A stretch of DNA of 41,122 bases from the NCBI GenBank assembly GCA_017550625.1, contig JAFZOL010000017.1:1-41122 (forward strand). The letters run 5' to 3'. This DNA is from Clostridia bacterium (lineage in GTDB: Bacteria > Bacillota > Clostridia > Oscillospirales > Acutalibacteraceae). The translations under genes were made by a program, and so were the position numbers. Shown piece by piece: positions 2,943 to 8,962 of this stretch (positions are counted from its first letter, which is position 1; every line of letters starts with the position of its first letter). Below the pieces are notes generated by a model. It saw only the letters and a program-made list of their open reading frames with translations. It did no database searches and was not told the DNA's origin.

Positions 2943-5765
2943 ATGAAAACAAAAAACGGCTGGGGCATGTTCCTGCTCGGCCTCAGACGAAGAAAAAAAG
3001 AGACGAGGCGCCTGCGGCTGCTGACGGCGCTCTCGGTCTTCTTTCTGGCTTTCACGCTGCTGCTGCAGGATAACATGGGCGCTTATCAAACGGCGCTCAA
3101 CGCCGAGACCTACGGCGCCTGGTTCGTCCGCGGCGACGCCGGCGTCTTCGAAAACCATCCGTATCTGAGAAGCCAGGGGCAGGTCCTCCGGGGCAGCCTC
3201 ATGTTTTCGGGGCGCACGTCCGCCGAGATCCTCACCGGCGAAAGGGCCTCCGACGAGATGAGCTACGACGACTACCTCGCGGCATACCTCGACGGCGACG
3301 AAGACGTCTACCCCCGCTTTCAGGACCAGCACCTCGGCGCCCGCACCACGCTCGACTTCATCGGGTCCTTCCCCGAGGGCTTTGCCGAAGAAAACCGCGT
3401 TTCTCTTTTGTCCGGGCGCTGGCCCGAGGCGGACGACGAGATCGTGATGACGATCCCGGCGCTCGAGCACTACGGCTACTCTATGACCCTCGGGCAGACG
3501 GTCTCTTTTTATCTGCAGCGGGGCTACGCATCCCCGTTTACATATCTCGTCGATCCGTCCGAAATATCCGATTTCATGTTCCCCGTGAGCTACCGCCTCG
3601 TCGGGATCATGGAGGACTACCTGCAGGTCTGGGACGCGGGCACGACCGGCGAGCTGCCTGCCGCCGTTGTCACCGAGTCGGCGCTGAAAAAGCAGGACAT
3701 GCTGATCTTTTCGCGCAGCTTTTTTGCGATCGGGGACGCATACAAAACGGGCGATTACGCCGCCTTCGCCTCGGCGCTGGCCGACGCCGTGCGCGCGGAC
3801 GGGTCGAACGGCCGCGAGGTGACGGATCTTGCGCCCATGAGCGTCGGCGACCGGTCGCCGAACACCCGGTATTACGCCCTGAACCGGTCCGGTTACGAGA
3901 CCGCCTTCTGGGGCGACGCCGCCGTCTTTCACGCGGTCACGGCCCTTCTGGTCGTCATGAGCGCCGCGGTTTCGGCCTATCTCTACGCCTCTTACCTCTC
4001 GCGGCGGCGGACCGGCTTTCTGCGGATGCGCGAAATCGGCCTGTCGGTGCGCGAGAGCTGGAAAATGGCGGCGTTCGAGTGCGTGTTCTCGGTGCTGCCC
4101 ACGGCGCTCATAACGCTCCTGGTCTCATACGCGATGAGCCTTCTGGCGGTGCTCGGGATCTCAAAAGCGGCCGGCCTGCCGTTTTTCTACCGGTTCACCG
4201 CCGCAACGCCGGGACTCATCCTGCTGCTGTTTCTGCTCGTCACGCTGTGCGCCCTGCTGGTGGCGGTGCCGGTCTTCTCCGGCCGCCGCGTCTTTATCAA
4301 GCGCCGCGGGCTCTCAAGGGCCGCCGTGCGGTCCCTGCGGCGGCGGGCGAAACGAACCGAAAAGCGAAAAAACATGGGAGTCGTGCGCGAAACGCTTTTG
4401 CGACAATCTAAAACGCGGCCCGTGCAGACGCTCGCGCCCCGCGTGCTGACCGTTTTCGTTTCCGTCGTGGTGCTCATGGGCGTCACGCAGATCTCTGATG
4501 CCTACGGCGCCTACCGCGTTCTGGCCGAGGCGCCCGCCATGACCGCCTACGCCGAGGGGACCGTGCAGGAATGGACGCTGTGGGTGCCGGTCTATCCCTA
4601 TGAGGACGCGAGGGGGCAAACGCGCGACACGCGCAAGCATAGCGTCGTGGCTGAAGGCTTTACGTCCGGGCACGTGGTGTCCGAGGCTTCGCTTGATCGT
4701 TTGAGGCAGATCCCGGGCGTTCAGGGGCTGAGCTGCGTCTTCCGTGACGTCACCCACGTTTTGTCCTGGCAGGGAAAAGAGACGAACCCCGTGTTCCTGT
4801 CCTGCCGCGCGGCCCTCGCGAAGCGCTATGGCCCCGAGGACCTCGATCTCAGCCGCCCCGAGATCTCGGCGCTCTACGCCCGCGTCGAGCCGCTGCTCTA
4901 TTCGATCGTCTGCTTTGAGGACGACGAAGCGGCCGAGGCGTACCTGTCCGCCGCCGACCCGGGCGTTTACGACGCCGCCGCGTTTTGCGAGGGCAGGCAG
5001 GCGCTGATGCTGCTCGATGAAACGATGGGGCAACTCTCGCCCGGCAACGAAAACGCGCCCGCGCCCGACGTCGGCCTTTCGCCGGGCGACGCCGTGGAGG
5101 TCCAAACGGCGTCCGGCGCTTTGACGCTCACGCTCGCGGGGGTCTGCCGCAACACCGACCGCGTGAGCACCGGCATGGCGGCCCTTCTTGTGTCCCCGGC
5201 CTTCGTCCGGCTTCTGGCCGAGGCGGACGGCAGGGTCTTCGGCTGCAACACGGTGGGGCTGCAACTGGACCCACGCGCCGACCTCATCGGCACCGCCGGG
5301 CTGGTCACGCCGCTTCTGACCGGCGAAGGCATGCGCTATGTCAACCGCGCCGAGGCGGTCGAAAACGCCCGCCGCGCCTTCTCCCGCACCGTGTTTGCCT
5401 ACGGGTCGTTCGCGCTGATCCTGGCGTCCCTCGGGCTTCTGGTCCTGAACGCCGCCGCGGGCGAAGAGCGCCGACGGGGCGAAGCGTCCGCGAAACGCCT
5501 GTCCCGCCTTGGGCTCGAGTCCCGGCGCTATACGCGCGGCGTCCTGTTGCGGGAGGGCAAAGAGAGCCTGTTCGTCCTTCCCGGCCTGCCGCTCTCGGTC
5601 CTCGGGGCGGGCGTCCTTGCGGACCCTGCCTCGATCCGGCAGTTCCCGTTTTTCACCGCCGCGGCTGCCGCGGCCGCGCTCACGCTCACGCTGCTCGTCT
5701 TTCTCTGCCGCGCCCTCGGCGCGCTGCGGCCCGAGACGGACGAACCCCCGAAGAAAGAGGTGTGA
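2943..5765 (+). CDS. FtsX-like ABC transporter permease
   Basis: A 940-residue integral membrane protein. A basic N-terminus precedes TM1 (about 27-43, LTALSVFFLAFTLLLQ). A large extracytoplasmic region of roughly 280 residues follows. Then comes a group of hydrophobic helices beginning near VFHAVTALLVVMSAAVSAYLYASYL and including LITLLVSYAMSLLAVLG and PGLILLLFLLVTLCALLVAVPVF. A second extracytoplasmic region follows VLTVFVSVVVLMGVTQISDAYGAY, and two further helices lie near the C-terminus (FALILASLGLLVLNAA, AAAAALTLTLLVFLCRALGAL). This duplicated FtsX/MacB_PCD organisation fits mechanotransmission or peptide-antibiotic resistance transporters better than solute importers. A strong GGAGGTG site precedes ATG 2943. 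The ATPase starts three bases after its stop. The substrate is unknown; antimicrobial-peptide detoxification is plausible from the linked two-component system. Confidence 0.88.
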   Translation: MKTKNGWGMFLLGLRRRKKETRRLRLLTALSVFFLAFTLLLQDNMGAYQTALNAETYGAWFVRGDAGVFENHPYLRSQGQVLRGSLMFSGRTSAEILTGERASDEMSYDDYLAAYLDGDEDVYPRFQDQHLGARTTLDFIGSFPEGFAEENRVSLLSGRWPEADDEIVMTIPALEHYGYSMTLGQTVSFYLQRGYASPFTYLVDPSEISDFMFPVSYRLVGIMEDYLQVWDAGTTGELPAAVVTESALKKQDMLIFSRSFFAIGDAYKTGDYAAFASALADAVRADGSNGREVTDLAPMSVGDRSPNTRYYALNRSGYETAFWGDAAVFHAVTALLVVMSAAVSAYLYASYLSRRRTGFLRMREIGLSVRESWKMAAFECVFSVLPTALITLLVSYAMSLLAVLGISKAAGLPFFYRFTAATPGLILLLFLLVTLCALLVAVPVFSGRRVFIKRRGLSRAAVRSLRRRAKRTEKRKNMGVVRETLLRQSKTRPVQTLAPRVLTVFVSVVVLMGVTQISDAYGAYRVLAEAPAMTAYAEGTVQEWTLWVPVYPYEDARGQTRDTRKHSVVAEGFTSGHVVSEASLDRLRQIPGVQGLSCVFRDVTHVLSWQGKETNPVFLSCRAALAKRYGPEDLDLSRPEISALYARVEPLLYSIVCFEDDEAAEAYLSAADPGVYDAAAFCEGRQALMLLDETMGQLSPGNENAPAPDVGLSPGDAVEVQTASGALTLTLAGVCRNTDRVSTGMAALLVSPAFVRLLAEADGRVFGCNTVGLQLDPRADLIGTAGLVTPLLTGEGMRYVNRAEAVENARRAFSRTVFAYGSFALILASLGLLVLNAAAGEERRRGEASAKRLSRLGLESRRYTRGVLLREGKESLFVLPGLPLSVLGAGVLADPASIRQFPFFTAAAAAAALTLTLLVFLCRALGALRPETDEPPKKEV

Positions 5766-5768
5766 CCC

Positions 5769-6443
5769 ATGTCAAACGACCCTGTGATCCTGCGGGCGGA
5801 TCAGATCTCCCGCACCTATCCCGGCTCCGTGCCGGTGCACGCCCTGAAGCCCTGCTCGCTGACCCTGCAAAAGGGGACCTTCACCGCCGTGGTCGGCAAA
5901 AGCGGCTCGGGCAAGTCCACGCTCTTGCGCATCCTCGGCACGCTGGACCCCTCCGATACCGGCACGCTGACGATCGAGGGGCGCGAGATCTGCAGGCTCG
6001 GCGACGCCGCCCTCTCGAGGTTCCGGCGCCGCAGGATCGGCTTCATCCATCAGGATTACGATCTGTTCCCCGAATACACGGCCTACGAAAACGCCGTATT
6101 CCCCCTGCATCTCGACTCCAAAACGGAGGACCGCAAAAAAACGGAAGCGCTGTTCGAGCAGCTCGGGCTCACGGACTGCCTGAATAAGTTCCCGCACGAG
6201 ATGTCGGGCGGCGAACAGCAGCGCGTCGCGATCGCGCGGGCGCTGGCCGCGAGCCCCGCCCTCATCCTCGCCGACGAGCCCACCGGCAACCTCGACGCCG
6301 CCAACGCCGAGCGGGTCGCCGGGATCCTGTCGTCCCTCGTGGATACGGAGAACGTCACCGTGGTGATGGTCACGCACGACGCGTCCCTCGCCGCGGCGGC
6401 GGACCGCGTGATCCGTATCTCAAACGGCGTGCTCGAGGCGTGA
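5769..6443 (+). CDS. ABC transporter ATP-binding protein (LolD/MacB/BceA type)
   Basis: A 224-residue nucleotide-binding subunit with every ABC motif: Walker A GKSGSGKST (about 43-51), Q-loop IHQDYDLFPEYTAYENAVFPL, signature MSGGEQQRVAIARAL (about 145-159), Walker B LILADEPTGNLD (about 165-176) and the switch histidine in MVTHD. EPTGNLD and the Q-loop sequence are typical of the family that pairs with FtsX-type permeases. It begins three bases after the permease stop behind a GAGGTG ribosome-binding site and is its energising partner. Its stop is followed by a 7-bp inverted repeat (CGCGTGA / TCACGCG, 6448-6474) without a clear T-tract, which may mark the end of the operon. Confidence 0.95.
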   Translation: MSNDPVILRADQISRTYPGSVPVHALKPCSLTLQKGTFTAVVGKSGSGKSTLLRILGTLDPSDTGTLTIEGREICRLGDAALSRFRRRRIGFIHQDYDLFPEYTAYENAVFPLHLDSKTEDRKKTEALFEQLGLTDCLNKFPHEMSGGEQQRVAIARALAASPALILADEPTGNLDAANAERVAGILSSLVDTENVTVVMVTHDASLAAAADRVIRISNGVLEA

Positions 6444-6500
6444 CCGGCGCGTGAGGTTTTTGCGGTTTCACGCGTCAAAGATACGAAGCCTCCGCCTTTC

Positions 6501-6529
6501 TTGACTTTTTCCGCTTTTTGTGCTACGAT
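6501..6529 (+). promoter_or_regulatory. Sigma-A promoter of the YGPP/radical SAM operon
   Basis: TTGACT (6501-6506) and TACGAT (6524-6529) are separated by exactly 17 bp. The promoter lies about 35 bases before the first YGPP gene and separates this operon from the upstream ABC transporter. Confidence 0.82.
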
Positions 6530-6563
6530 GAAAACGGAGAAACCCTTTGAAGGAGGGGAGACT

Positions 6564-6806
6564 ATGCGCATCAAGGGGACGAAGAAGGACAAGATCGCCC
6601 GGCCGGTCCGGTGCCGCCGCGCGTCCGAGAACGTGCCGATCTGCATTTACGGCCCGCCCGAAATGCTCAGAAAACGCGCCGGCAAGCTTGAAGAGCCCGC
6701 GCCCGAAACGCCCGTGCCCGACGAACCCGCGCCCTTCGATCCGCGCGGCAACGTCGCCGACCCGCTCTACGGCCCGCCCGCCGGGGAAACGCTTGCCGAC
6801 AAATAA
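6564..6806 (+). CDS. Small YGPP-motif protein A, candidate radical SAM substrate
   Basis: An 80-residue protein without signal peptide or membrane segment. The N-terminus is strongly basic (MRIKGTKKDKIARPVRCRR) and the rest is rich in Pro and Glu. It contains two Tyr-Gly-Pro-Pro motifs, CIYGPPEM at residue 29 and PLYGPPAG at residue 69, 40 residues apart; the second lies near the C-terminus. ATG 6564 is chosen because AGGAGGGG (6551-6558) sits at ideal distance, although the frame is open further upstream through the promoter. The next gene encodes a second protein with the same motif, and the third a radical SAM/SPASM enzyme, so A is probably a precursor or substrate of that enzyme. I cannot assign it to a named family. 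Confidence 0.78.
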   Translation: MRIKGTKKDKIARPVRCRRASENVPICIYGPPEMLRKRAGKLEEPAPETPVPDEPAPFDPRGNVADPLYGPPAGETLADK

Positions 6807-6820
6807 GGGGAGGAAAGACC

Positions 6821-7174
6821 ATGAAACGCAGAAGACCCAACAAGCGCACCGCAGCCGCGATTCTGGCGGGCAGCCTTGCCGCGTCCGCCGTGTTGCTGCC
6901 CGCGTGCGAGAACCGCAACCAGAACCTCTACGGCCCGCCGCCGGAGGACTCCACCGGCGAGTCGGAATACGACCCGTCGTATAATCAGAATGAGGATATC
7001 TACGGCCCGCCCGAGTGGTTCAGCACCGAGGACAACGAAAACGTGTCGCTCTACGGCCCGCCCGAGATATTCGACGACGAAGAAGACTCCGACGAGCCCG
7101 AAACGGACTTTGCGCCCGAAGACAACACCGCCGCGCCGCTCTACGGCCCGCCCGCGGGCGAGGCGGAGGCGTGA
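6821..7174 (+). CDS. YGPP-repeat putative lipoprotein B, candidate radical SAM substrate
   Basis: A 117-residue protein. A basic start (MKRRRPNKR) is followed by a hydrophobic helix (about 10-27) and a lipobox-like LPAC with Cys29 as predicted lipid site, so it is likely secreted and tethered to the outer face of the membrane. The mature part is acidic and low-complexity, with four YGPP motifs at residues 37, 61, 78 and 108 (NLYGPPPE, DIYGPPEW, SLYGPPEI, PLYGPPAG). The last context, PLYGPPAGE, is the same as in protein A. A GGGGAGG site precedes ATG 6821. The radical SAM gene follows after 4 bases. Its design (lipoprotein with repeated short motif beside a SPASM enzyme) recalls the rSAM/lipoprotein systems described in Bacteroidetes. 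That kinship is inference from memory of the family, not a search. Confidence 0.78.
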   Translation: MKRRRPNKRTAAAILAGSLAASAVLLPACENRNQNLYGPPPEDSTGESEYDPSYNQNEDIYGPPEWFSTEDNENVSLYGPPEIFDDEEDSDEPETDFAPEDNTAAPLYGPPAGEAEA

Positions 7175-7178
7175 GCCG

Positions 7179-8249
7179 ATGAAGACCCTCAAAGAGCGGC
7201 ACCTTGACGAGCTTGCCGCCTATCACGAAACGCTCTGCCGCGAACCGAAGCTCAGGCACCTCTTTCTGGAGCTTACGCTCCGGTGCAACGCCAATTGCTT
7301 CCACTGCGGCTCCAACTGCACGCCCGACGGCGGCGAGGGCCTCACCCTCGCCGACTACCGCCGCATCCTCGACGAGGTCAAAGCGGATTTTGATATCTCG
7401 AAGCTCATGCTCTGCATCACCGGCGGCGAGCCGCTATTGCGGCACGATTTCTTTGAGATCATGGAATACGCTCACGCCCTCGGCTACAACTGGGGCATGA
7501 CCTCAAACGCCACGCTCATCGACGAAACGACAGCCCGCCGCCTTGCCGAGACCGGCATGAAAACGATCAGCGTCTCGATCGACGGCCTTCGGGAGACCCA
7601 CGACGACCTGCGCGGGATGGTCGGCGGCTTCGACCGCGCCATGCGCGGCGTGCAGAACCTCATCGACGTGCGCGCGTTCCAAAACGTGCAGATCACCACG
7701 GTGTTCAACCACCGCAATATCAAAGAGATCGACGCGCTTTTCGACCTCATGAAAAGCGTCGATATCGACTCGTGGCGCGTGGCGGCGCTCGAGCCCATCG
7801 GCAGGGCGCTCTCGCGTCCCGAGCTCATGCTCACGCCCGACGACGTGCGCGCGCTGATGGATTTCGTCCGCGAAAAGCGGCGGCAGGGCTGGCCCGTGGA
7901 ATACGGCTGCTCGCACTATCTCGGGCTCGGTTACGAAGCCGAGGTCCGCGACTGGTATTGGCTCTGCAACGCCGGGGTCTACACCGCCTCGATCATGGAA
8001 AACGGCGACGTCGGCGCCTGCCTCGACATCGAGCGCCGACCCGAGACCGTGTTCGGCAACGTCAAAACGCGGCGCTTCTCCGAGATCTGGAAAAACGGCT
8101 TCGGCATCTTCCGCGGCAATCTCGGCGAAAAGAGCGAAACCTGCCGCGCCTGCCCGCACCTGAAATACTGCCGCGGCGACGCCGCCCACAGCTGGAACTT
8201 CGACGAAAACGAGCCGATGGTCTGCTACCGCCATATCCTGTTCGACTGA
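7179..8249 (+). CDS. Radical SAM/SPASM-domain enzyme of the YGPP system
   Basis: A 356-residue radical SAM protein. The [4Fe-4S]-SAM motif is CNANCFHC (C36, C40, C43), followed at once by GSNC. The GGEPLLR motif that binds SAM is present, and the TIM-barrel strands VSIDGL and TTVF are recognisable. The C-terminal SPASM region has C263, C281 (CNAG...GDVGAC), C322, C325, C331 and C349, suited to binding auxiliary Fe-S clusters, as in peptide-modifying enzymes. AGGCGGAGG lies just before ATG 7179 and the gene starts 4 bases after protein B, so the three genes form one operon. The LELTLRCNANCFHCGSNC start resembles the subgroup that accompanies small lipoproteins. No separate RRE or precursor-recognition domain is obvious. 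The likely role is post-translational modification at YGPP sites; the chemistry is unknown. Confidence 0.9.
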   Translation: MKTLKERHLDELAAYHETLCREPKLRHLFLELTLRCNANCFHCGSNCTPDGGEGLTLADYRRILDEVKADFDISKLMLCITGGEPLLRHDFFEIMEYAHALGYNWGMTSNATLIDETTARRLAETGMKTISVSIDGLRETHDDLRGMVGGFDRAMRGVQNLIDVRAFQNVQITTVFNHRNIKEIDALFDLMKSVDIDSWRVAALEPIGRALSRPELMLTPDDVRALMDFVREKRRQGWPVEYGCSHYLGLGYEAEVRDWYWLCNAGVYTASIMENGDVGACLDIERRPETVFGNVKTRRFSEIWKNGFGIFRGNLGEKSETCRACPHLKYCRGDAAHSWNFDENEPMVCYRHILFD

Positions 8250-8266
8250 CTATTTGAATATTCAAA

Positions 8267-8293
8267 AAAGGAGCCTCATGGCTCCTTTCTTTT
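8267..8293. terminator. Bidirectional intrinsic terminator
   Basis: A 9-bp stem AAAGGAGCC / GGCTCCTTT with TCAT loop is flanked by an A-run on the left and TTTCTTTTTT on the right. It lies between the convergent radical SAM and zinc-ribbon genes and could serve both. Confidence 0.88.
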
Positions 8294-8303
8294 TTGGTTT
8301 ATA

Positions 8304-8936
8304 TCAGGATTCGGACTCTTCTTCGGTTCCGGTTGTTTCTTCTTCGTTTGAAGCTTCCTCCTCTGAGGAATCCATGGTTTCGGATATATCGTCAGCAGAA
8401 GACGCTTCATCCGAAACGCTTGTAGTTTCACCGTTAGCTTTTGAGGGGTCCGCATTTTGATCAGATTGGGTCGCACCGATAATCAGAAGCAATACCCAAA
8501 CGCCTGCAATAATGGCAATTCTGATTTTTTTGTTTAGTTTTATTTTGTCCGTTTTATAAAACCAGATGGACAACGCAATAGGGAAGAAGGATATTGCAAG
8601 GATCCAGAGCCCGATTTTTTTCCAGTCAACGTTTGAACTTTTCTTCGCTTTTGCGTTTGAATCCCATGAGTATCCGCAAGACTGACAGACTGCCGTCGTT
8701 CTGTAATAGACTTCTTTTGAAGTCTTGCTTTTGGTGTTCCCGATTTCTTCGCGCCTGAATTTGATGTTGTTATGTCCGCACCTGGGACACGAGATCGCGG
8801 CGCCTGGTTCATTCTTTTCGTTATAATAGTTGTTTGTTATCTGAATCTTCGGTTGCTCTTTTTCGACTTCACTGTTGCAATAAGGGCAGACAACAGACGT
8901 TCCCGGGATTTCAGCGCCGCAGCTTTTACACTTCAT
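8304..8936 (-). CDS. Zinc-ribbon membrane protein, function unknown
   Basis: A 210-residue protein. The N-terminus has a zinc ribbon, CKSCGAEI...VCPYCNSEV, and a second Cys4 set, CPRCGHNN...CQSCGYSWD. It is followed by two membrane segments, IGLWILAISFFPIALSIWFY and IAIIAGVWVLLLIIGATQ. The C-terminal tail is acidic and low-complexity, rich in Ser, Glu and Asp. The start is taken at the second methionine (8936) because GAAAGGA then sits about 8 bases upstream; the first possible ATG (8945) overlaps that site. The gene is AT-rich compared with its neighbours and is divergent from an XRE repressor gene. A palindromic operator lies inside its promoter spacer. I do not recognise a functional family; zinc-ribbon proteins of this form are often annotated only by domain. 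Confidence 0.85.
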   Translation of the reverse strand: MKCKSCGAEIPGTSVVCPYCNSEVEKEQPKIQITNNYYNEKNEPGAAISCPRCGHNNIKFRREEIGNTKSKTSKEVYYRTTAVCQSCGYSWDSNAKAKKSSNVDWKKIGLWILAISFFPIALSIWFYKTDKIKLNKKIRIAIIAGVWVLLLIIGATQSDQNADPSKANGETTSVSDEASSADDISETMDSSEEEASNEEETTGTEEESES

Positions 8937-8962
8937 CCATCTCATCCTTTCAGTTTTTTTTC

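Follow-up and report, generated by a model that had tools for sequence, protein, structure and literature searches.

A three-gene operon on a 41,122-nucleotide contig from a Clostridia bacterium that has relatives among animal gut bacteria (JAFZOL010000017.1 of assembly GCA_017550625.1; hereafter the window) encodes two small proteins, A and B, that share Tyr-Gly-Pro-Pro (YGPP) motifs, and a radical S-adenosylmethionine (SAM) enzyme with a SPASM domain. Comparative sequence analysis suggests that the operon is a tag-directed modification module with splicease-type chemistry, a reading to which we assign a probability of about 0.5. The enzyme probably edits the YGPP tag of the neighbouring proteins, and a change of some kind at Tyr-Gly is much more likely than any exact nature of that change.

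Pairing of enzyme and tag across genomes

A sequence-only reading of the window had proposed that the enzyme modifies YGPP sites, and had named in advance a lack of genomic co-occurrence as the finding that would overturn this. Instead, co-occurrence was near complete in both directions. Loci were found by searching for the enzyme and not for the tag. A scan of contigs from GTDB genomes gave 39 enzyme loci, 35 of them at 53-81% identity (best segment), and further loci came from 59 genomes, comprising the window's own and 58 relatives. A same-strand YGPP frame lay directly upstream in 42 of the 43 loci whose enzyme reached at least 51% identity; for the one left over (L031) just 2 upstream bases are available, which makes it uninformative. 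The 42 loci include the window, one duplicate (L041, equal to L001) and one near-duplicate (L035 and L004).

For the opposite direction, a 20-residue tag profile (A2) was used in whole-genome searches. It matched 10 of the 59 genomes at E≤0.01, and the enzyme was present in all 10, although in two (G005 and G025) the match reached only E 0.006-0.007. The enzyme genes of G020 and G025 run off the contig end with the start still recognisable, and in an eleventh genome of the 59 (G010) an enzyme fragment adjoins a contig edge and the substrate position falls outside the sequence. Among 398 genomes of the phylum the profile matched three: the window's own, the enzyme-bearing G279, and G316, where the match is a 13-residue frame that we take as chance. 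When 200 genomes of the family of G279 were searched, six matched at E≤0.005 and all six had the enzyme. Starting from the enzyme in the same 200 genomes (E≤1e-45), 13 were positive: six match the tag profile, two (G474 and G504) have adjacent YGPP lipoproteins, two (G481 and G544) have an adjacent zinc-ribbon protein with YGPKP or YGPMP, and in G603 a contig end interrupts the locus. G641 and G493, the last two of the 13, have damaged enzymes, and no YGPP tag was seen in the surrounding 15-16 kb.

No other neighbouring gene was comparably conserved. The next group occurred in 4 loci only (frames of at least 120 aa, 35 loci), and none occurred in more than 4 of 40 loci when same-strand frames of at least 40 aa within 1.5 kb were considered. 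The carriers, mostly metagenome-assembled genomes, have record names from Clostridiales, Ruminococcaceae, Lachnospiraceae, Erysipelotrichaceae, Coriobacteriales and Eggerthellales. The system, a clostridial version of which had been called unusual, is not an isolated case: it is spread over these named groups, and its enzyme is a relative of a Bacteroidetes radical SAM/lipoprotein family. Since genomes within one genus are not independent, we give these counts without a probability. On these sequence comparisons, we take the pairing of enzyme and tag to be real.

The YGPP tag and its carriers

Six YGPP motifs had been noted in A and B, and the number stands, with two in A and four in B. Shuffling A and B 100,000 times gave a mean of 0.0097 motifs and a maximum of 2, so that the six motifs are not due to chance. 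At the DNA level the YGPP pattern occurs 18 times in the whole genome (both strands, any frame), of which 6 are in the operon, and a reversed control pattern occurs 25 times. The matches of profile A2 in this genome at E≤0.01, 4 in number, all fell in the operon.

A tag set of 47 proteins was collected from 40 loci; L035 and L041 were excluded as duplicates, L031 as uninformative, and two frames as due to chance. These proteins hold 134 YGPP motifs, together with three YGPA, one YGPM and one YGPE as near-forms. The residue preceding Tyr is Val, Leu or Ile in all 134 sites, position -6 is Asn in 113 of them and position -9 is Pro in 86, and the consensus is [FY]-[DE]-P-x-x-N-x4-[VLI]-Y-G-P-P-x-x-F.

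Lipoprotein-like sequences, judged by a loose pattern, make up 41 of the 47 tagged proteins. DUF805 membrane proteins carry the tag in their tail (L029, L045 and L047 by Pfam, L046 by eye), and tags are found mid-protein as well as at protein ends. Tags also occur far from the enzyme gene: in five copies of a Cys-rich family (CxGTCPKC) in G003, G004 and G018, in small peptides with an amphipathic-looking stretch in G004 and G018, and in a zinc-ribbon protein in G279. A tagged 47-residue peptide of G459 lies about 4.4 kb from the enzyme, and in G572 no tagged protein is encoded within about 2 kb of the enzyme (contig C7), and a tagged DUF805-like protein is encoded on contig C2. Homologues of the Cys-rich family in G005, G007, G010, G015 and G024 are untagged; the existence of tagged and untagged homologues indicates that the tag can be gained or lost by a protein. 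The earlier picture of two dedicated substrates was therefore too narrow, and by these sequences the tag is a portable unit.

Such carriers bear on the possibility that A and B are precursors of a conventional ribosomally synthesised and post-translationally modified peptide (RiPP), which would be modified, cleaved and exported as small products. Small precursor-like genes do directly precede a SPASM maturase. However, no conserved protease, transporter or RiPP recognition element (RRE) gene is found nearby, and the tagged proteins include lipoprotein-like, DUF805 membrane and zinc-ribbon proteins, some of them tagged in mid-protein. We consider this the least probable of the explanations discussed here.

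Two further observations concern the carriers. CxGTCPKC proteins with acidic tails are encoded in L122, L124 and L126, with a thioredoxin or metal P-type ATPase nearby in two genomes (by eye). Zinc-ribbon proteins (L192:2717-3031, L193:3993-4394 and L127:1973-2416) have IYGPMP, IYGPKP or TYGPP between Cys-pair motifs; two adjoin a YGPP-type enzyme and one is on another contig.

Phylogenetic position of the enzyme

The enzyme matched the Pfam families Radical_SAM (PF04055, 75.9 bits) and SPASM (PF13186, 34.1 bits), both over cut-off, which agrees with its previous description as a radical SAM protein with CNANCFHC and six SPASM-type cysteines. Its best NCBIfam match was TIGR04133 (rSAM_w_lipo), at 264.1 bits and so below the 425-bit cut-off. 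The AlphaFold2 model had a mean predicted local distance difference test (pLDDT) value of 86.4, and the top Foldseek matches were SuiB, BlsE, SkfB, anSME (4k38), CteB, PqqE and ChlB, with query template modelling scores (TMq) of 0.64-0.73. As only 35 residues lie ahead of the CxxxCxxC motif, there is no room for an N-terminal RRE domain.

Maximum-likelihood analysis of 34 SPASM enzymes united the YGPP group, its sister group with a JAMM-like fusion, and TIGR04133 in one clade (support 99/98). The sister of this clade comprised TIGR04103, TIGR03913 and relatives from Tropicibacter and Agathobacter, for which no family scored over its cut-off. The joint clade had a support of 98/96, and 91/97 in an earlier 37-row tree. 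The extended motif CxxxCxxCGS was present in 24/24 rows of the clade vs 0/10 outgroup rows. Approximately unbiased (AU) tests of alternatives that were picked after the tree was seen gave p-AU values of 0.044 (marginal), 0.026, 0.004 and 0.002 when the YGPP, JAMM-like and TIGR04133 groups were joined with MftC, MftC plus PqqE, AhbD plus TIGR04053, and NirJ, respectively.

These tests bear on a different explanation, in which YGPP serves acidic surface proteins for binding or structure and the target of the enzyme is a different residue, a cofactor or a metabolite. Tyr-containing Pro-rich motifs are common ligand motifs, and the heme and cofactor enzymes AhbD, NirJ and MftC are among the nearest families by bit score after TIGR04133. 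Against this, the AU tests disfavour groupings with these three enzymes, the tag accompanies the enzyme over distant taxa and on unrelated carriers, and the surroundings of the enzyme show no second widely conserved gene. A binding motif therefore seems highly improbable.

The sister enzymes with a C-terminal JAMM-like domain are found at L048-L055 (G002, G003, G004, G005, G007, G015, G022 and G024, all of the same genus), at 38-43% identity; the domain was assigned from the pattern HSHPx7SxxD in the aligned members, with no Pfam JAB family at E≤1. A scan of viral contigs for further TIGR04133 relatives found none. A role in anti-phage defence was considered and dropped, as the PADLOC matches were limited to pVip models, at 60.8-69.8 bits over the radical SAM region, and we take these as generic; a pVip-kinase model scored 28.4 bits on L053.

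Substrates of related enzymes and damaged loci

Candidate substrates of the related enzymes repeat part of the tag. The TIGR04133 lipoproteins have YGxP in the three cases seen (CEYGTP, CEYGSP and SCYGMP). Seven of the eight JAMM-type loci encode a small protein with YYGCPNS(K/N)KAxKLQL near its end, with three such proteins in a row in L050. A Nostoc precursor that adjoins a TIGR04103 enzyme (853 bits, cut-off 725) ends in RGSIALYGLPPELF (IALYGLPPELF), and peptides of the TIGR03913 (GDL) system have LYG or PYG near the N-terminus in 5/8 Azospirillum and 1/3 Aureibacter cases. Across the wider clade, the residue following Tyr-Gly is P, T, S, M, C, L, A, G or V. With Tyr-Gly recurring in most of the clade's substrates seen and the position after it variable, Tyr-Gly is a better candidate for the target than Pro.

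Two loci of the wider clade hold further genes of note. On the Nostoc plasmid (L134:5615-7436), a Nif11-leader precursor and the TIGR04103 enzyme are accompanied by a 71-residue downstream gene, maybe a PlpY-like partner. In Agathobacter rectalis (L070:2806-2913), an unannotated 35-residue frame, which was chosen for holding YG, ends in VMYGTGVRM and lies directly upstream of a TIGR04103-like enzyme.

The damaged enzymes mentioned above point to the same residue. The G641 enzyme is split over two frames and looks frameshifted. The enzyme of G493 is an open frame (L189:6481-7942) in which the whole CxxxCxxC loop is lost and GGEP has become GAEP. The protein adjoining it reads NYDVTANINQPRSGPPEM, with SGPP in place of YGPP, and ends in NYDVTANINQPRSGPPEMAG, which is the tag with Tyr replaced by Ser. 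The joint loss of the cluster loop and the tag Tyr is as expected if Tyr is the target, although it is a single case that suggests this and does not prove it. Of the two targets put forward before, Tyr has gained from the recurring Tyr-Gly and from the SGPP of G493, while Pro has lost ground.

The same evidence would fit other reactions centred on Tyr, such as cleavage between its alpha- and beta-carbons without religation, or hydroxylation, dehydrogenation or epimerisation of Tyr or a neighbour. All that places the target at Tyr, including its loss in the decayed G493 locus, serves these equally, and a system with no PlpY-like partner and no seventh SPASM cysteine leaves room for diverged chemistry. 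Such reactions leave the recurring Gly after Tyr unexplained, whereas splicing at X-Tyr-Gly explains it. We regard them as doubtful, but they deserve some weight.

A cross-link within the tag has also to be weighed, such as a cyclophane of three residues (Tyr-Gly-X) in which the Tyr ring is bonded to the beta-carbon of X. According to the part of PMC9062424 available to us, links of this type are made by SPASM enzymes, and repeated aromatic motifs have been interpreted accordingly. The third residue is Pro in 134/134 YGxP sites of the YGPP proteins and elsewhere usually bears beta-hydrogens. Its variation over the wider clade would be odd for a cross-link partner, while Tyr-Gly recurs, and the tree places the enzyme with TIGR04103, with the cyclophane synthases outside the tree. 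A cyclophane is in our view rather unlikely.

A third idea, Val-Tyr chemistry like that of MftC, was suggested by the VYGPP forms and was rejected. The Tyr on which MftC acts is C-terminal, conservation of the residue before Tyr is confined to the YGPP group, and the tree with MftC had a marginal p-AU of 0.044.

Proposed chemistry and function

The splicease PlpX is a SPASM enzyme that works with the RRE protein PlpY; it excises tyramine from Xaa-Tyr-Gly, and the backbone is rejoined as an alpha-ketoamide, according to the part of PMC11002830 available to us. As described in the accessible part of PMC10533398, the natural sites of PlpXY are MYG and LYG, the leader is not required, and a ten-residue splice tag derived from PlpA2 (PIRP-G/L-YGLPI) was spliced in its GYG form in unrelated proteins. 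The X-Tyr-Gly trait of these sites is found here as [VLI]-Y-G in 134/134 motifs, where Y and G are given by construction and the preceding residue is not. The window's IYGPPEWF and LYGPPEIF resemble both LYGLPPELF of Nostoc and YGLPI of the PlpA2-derived tag, which makes splicing the most economical reading.

We propose that a cytosolic radical SAM/SPASM enzyme would recognise the portable tag in whatever protein bears it and act at the Tyr-Gly of the tag. The reaction would be as in the PlpX spliceases, with tyramine excised and an alpha-ketoamide left. Several ketoamides per surface protein could then act as reversible electrophiles, most simply as protease traps. In such a trap, Val, Leu or Ile would speculatively be P1, with Pro at P2'-P3'. 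This use of surface ketoamides is a guess, in line with protease inhibition, which is the stated use of splicease products in the accessible part of PMC11002830.

Several points weigh against splicing and against the superfamily drawn around it. The enzyme gene of G504 has an in-frame stop, yet three YGPP motifs are kept. Tyr-Gly is not universal: no YGCP peptide was found in the flanks of L055, one of the eight JAMM-type loci, and the N-terminal YG is absent in 3/8 Azospirillum and 2/3 Aureibacter GDL peptides. The residue before Tyr-Gly also departs from the Met or Leu found at natural PlpXY sites: the JAMM-like group has Tyr at this position, and the TIGR04133 partners have Glu or Cys. Homologues of the Cys-rich family remain untagged despite a YGPP-type enzyme (G005, G015 and G024) or an enzyme fragment (G010), so that the enzyme does not force the tag onto this family. 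Profile A2 is incomplete in sensitivity and missed the YGPP lipoproteins of G474 and G504; a weakly tagged genome without the enzyme could escape it as well.

On the side of the enzyme, no conserved gene for a PlpY-like RRE partner was found beside it (40 loci, frames of at least 40 aa). Seven SPASM cysteines are the pattern for two full auxiliary clusters, and the window enzyme has six. The CX3C position near the C-terminus of TIGR04103 holds a residue other than Cys in the YGPP, JAMM-like and TIGR04133 rows shown. By bit score, AhbD, NirJ, MftC and TIGR04053 (147-126) stand nearer to the window enzyme than TIGR04103 (105.4, below its cut-off of 725), and bit scores alone would have missed the TIGR04103 grouping. 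Cyclophane and sactipeptide synthases and PlpX lay outside the sample of the tree, and the membership of PlpX in TIGR04103 is an assumption (review: IPR026482). Finally, only two of the many constructs listed for inserts in FtsZ were spliced, and the LYG forms, PIRPLYGLPI, were unspliced (accessible part of PMC10533398).

We put forward a broader picture more tentatively, at somewhat less than even odds. It is that of a general protein-editing system of anaerobic gut bacteria, in which a single enzyme would cut tyramine from X-Tyr-Gly-Pro-Pro on many unrelated proteins genome-wide and so leave arrays of alpha-ketoamide electrophiles on the surface, and in which TIGR04133, the JAMM-like group, TIGR03913 and TIGR04103 would form one Tyr-Gly-directed superfamily of backbone editors. 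Splicing predicts a loss of about 135.07 Da per tag, which corresponds to the formula C8H9NO; for PlpXY a mass loss of 135.0757 Da is stated in the accessible part of PMC10533398. If true, the unexplained radical SAM/lipoprotein gene pairs of gut and rumen bacteria would have a function, and a SPASM enzyme could serve as a tag-directed modifier of many proteins. Tyramine splicing would then be a widespread protein modification and not a natural-product curiosity, yielding natural multi-site ketoamide proteins; ketoamides are used in protein labelling and protease inhibition. With so short a motif, borne by unrelated carriers, the enzymes could become practical tools.

Organization of the operon

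The operon was read on the + strand from 6501 to 8288. The arrangement read from the sequence earlier, one promoter followed by three tightly spaced genes, was borne out: one sigma-70-like site was found in 6300-8400 vs 0.3 expected from shuffles, and the gaps are 14 bases between A and B and 4 bases between B and the enzyme gene (Table 1). Terminator-like sites numbered 7 in the same scan vs 2.7 expected, and the best stem with a T-run lies just 3' of the enzyme gene.

By eye, a signal peptide is absent from protein A, while the N-terminus of B has a signal sequence and a lipobox-like LLPAC with the lipobox Cys at position 29. Protein B is acidic, with an isoelectric point of 4.05 and 29% Asp plus Glu beyond the lipobox. 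Neither protein matched a family in Pfam, NCBIfam or PADLOC, and leader-peptide models gave no match for A or B.

Table 1. Features of the YGPP operon and their positions in the window
Feature	Description	Position	Strand	Method
Promoter	sigma-70-like, TTGACT-17-TACGAT, extended TG	6501..6529	+	motif scan
Protein A	80 aa, two YGPP; candidate cytosolic substrate	6564..6806	+	
YGPP site A1	ICIYGPPEML, in protein A	6648..6659	+	
YGPP site A2	FDPRGNVADPLYGPPAGE, in protein A	6768..6779	+	
Protein B	117 aa, lipoprotein-like, four YGPP; candidate surface substrate	6821..7174	+	
YGPP site B1	QNLYGPPPED, in protein B	6929..6940	+	
YGPP site B2	YDPSYNQNEDIYGPPEWF, in protein B	7001..7012	+	
YGPP site B3	FSTEDNENVSLYGPPEIF, in protein B	7052..7063	+	
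YGPP site B4	FAPEDNTAAPLYGPPAGE, in protein B	7142..7153	+	
Radical SAM/SPASM enzyme	356 aa, CNANCFHCGS, six SPASM-region Cys (by eye)	7179..8249	+	
Terminator	intrinsic-terminator-like stem-loop, then T-run	8267..8288	+	terminator scan

Directly upstream of the operon (2943-6443) lie genes for a large FtsX/MacB-like permease (by eye) and a LolD-like ATPase. This ABC pair was considered as a RiPP exporter and rejected: the permease was found in 0/42 loci, and the ATPase had weak matches (27-33% identity) in 2/42. As the pair is not kept beside other YGPP loci, we place it outside the module. Convergent with the operon, 8304-8945 on the - strand encodes a zinc-ribbon membrane protein (by eye) without YGPP, whose CQSCGYSW recalls the tagged zinc-ribbon proteins of relatives, possibly by chance.

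Comparison with known systems

A literature search, to which most subscription papers were out of reach, found no description of a YGPP/radical SAM system. Within the same limit, radical SAM/lipoprotein pairs were found to be annotated (TIGR04133/TIGR04134), with no function given. The TIGR04134 model did not match B, A or four YGPP proteins of L001, L002 and L017, and a search of the window's genome with it gave no match, where the controls matched nothing either. Judged by these sequences, the YGPP branch, its repeated portable tag and the carriers in trans fall outside the TIGR04133/TIGR04134 models.

The Bacteroidetes pair TIGR04133/TIGR04134 nevertheless resembles the YGPP system, as the enzymes belong to the same clade, the lipoprotein gene adjoins the enzyme gene and the three lipoproteins seen have YGxP. 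In contrast to it, the YGPP system has many repeated tags, carriers that are not lipoproteins and carriers in trans. The TIGR03913 GDL-motif system, with its DUF1843 peptides, shares the sister clade and LYG or PYG. Its enzyme is 47-48% identical to the Nostoc TIGR04103 enzyme and remote from the YGPP enzymes, and its peptides are different.

The anaerobic sulfatase maturase anSME works in a like manner, as a SPASM enzyme that lacks an RRE and modifies proteins at a short internal sequence. It has a fold similar to that of the YGPP enzyme (4k38), whereas its target sequence and reaction are different and it stands far off in the tree.

The splicease PlpXY and TIGR04103 share with the YGPP system X-Tyr-Gly as the target or candidate target, the sister clade and CxxxCxxCGS, and the end of the Nostoc precursor, LYGLPPELF, is like the window's IYGPPEWF. 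The YGPP system differs from them in that no Nif11/NHLP leader was found and in its six instead of seven SPASM cysteines. Its carriers are surface and membrane proteins, whereas the PlpXY/TIGR04103 substrates are peptides. That PlpXY splices short tags in unrelated proteins, as described in the accessible part of PMC10533398, is a further likeness to the portable YGPP tag.

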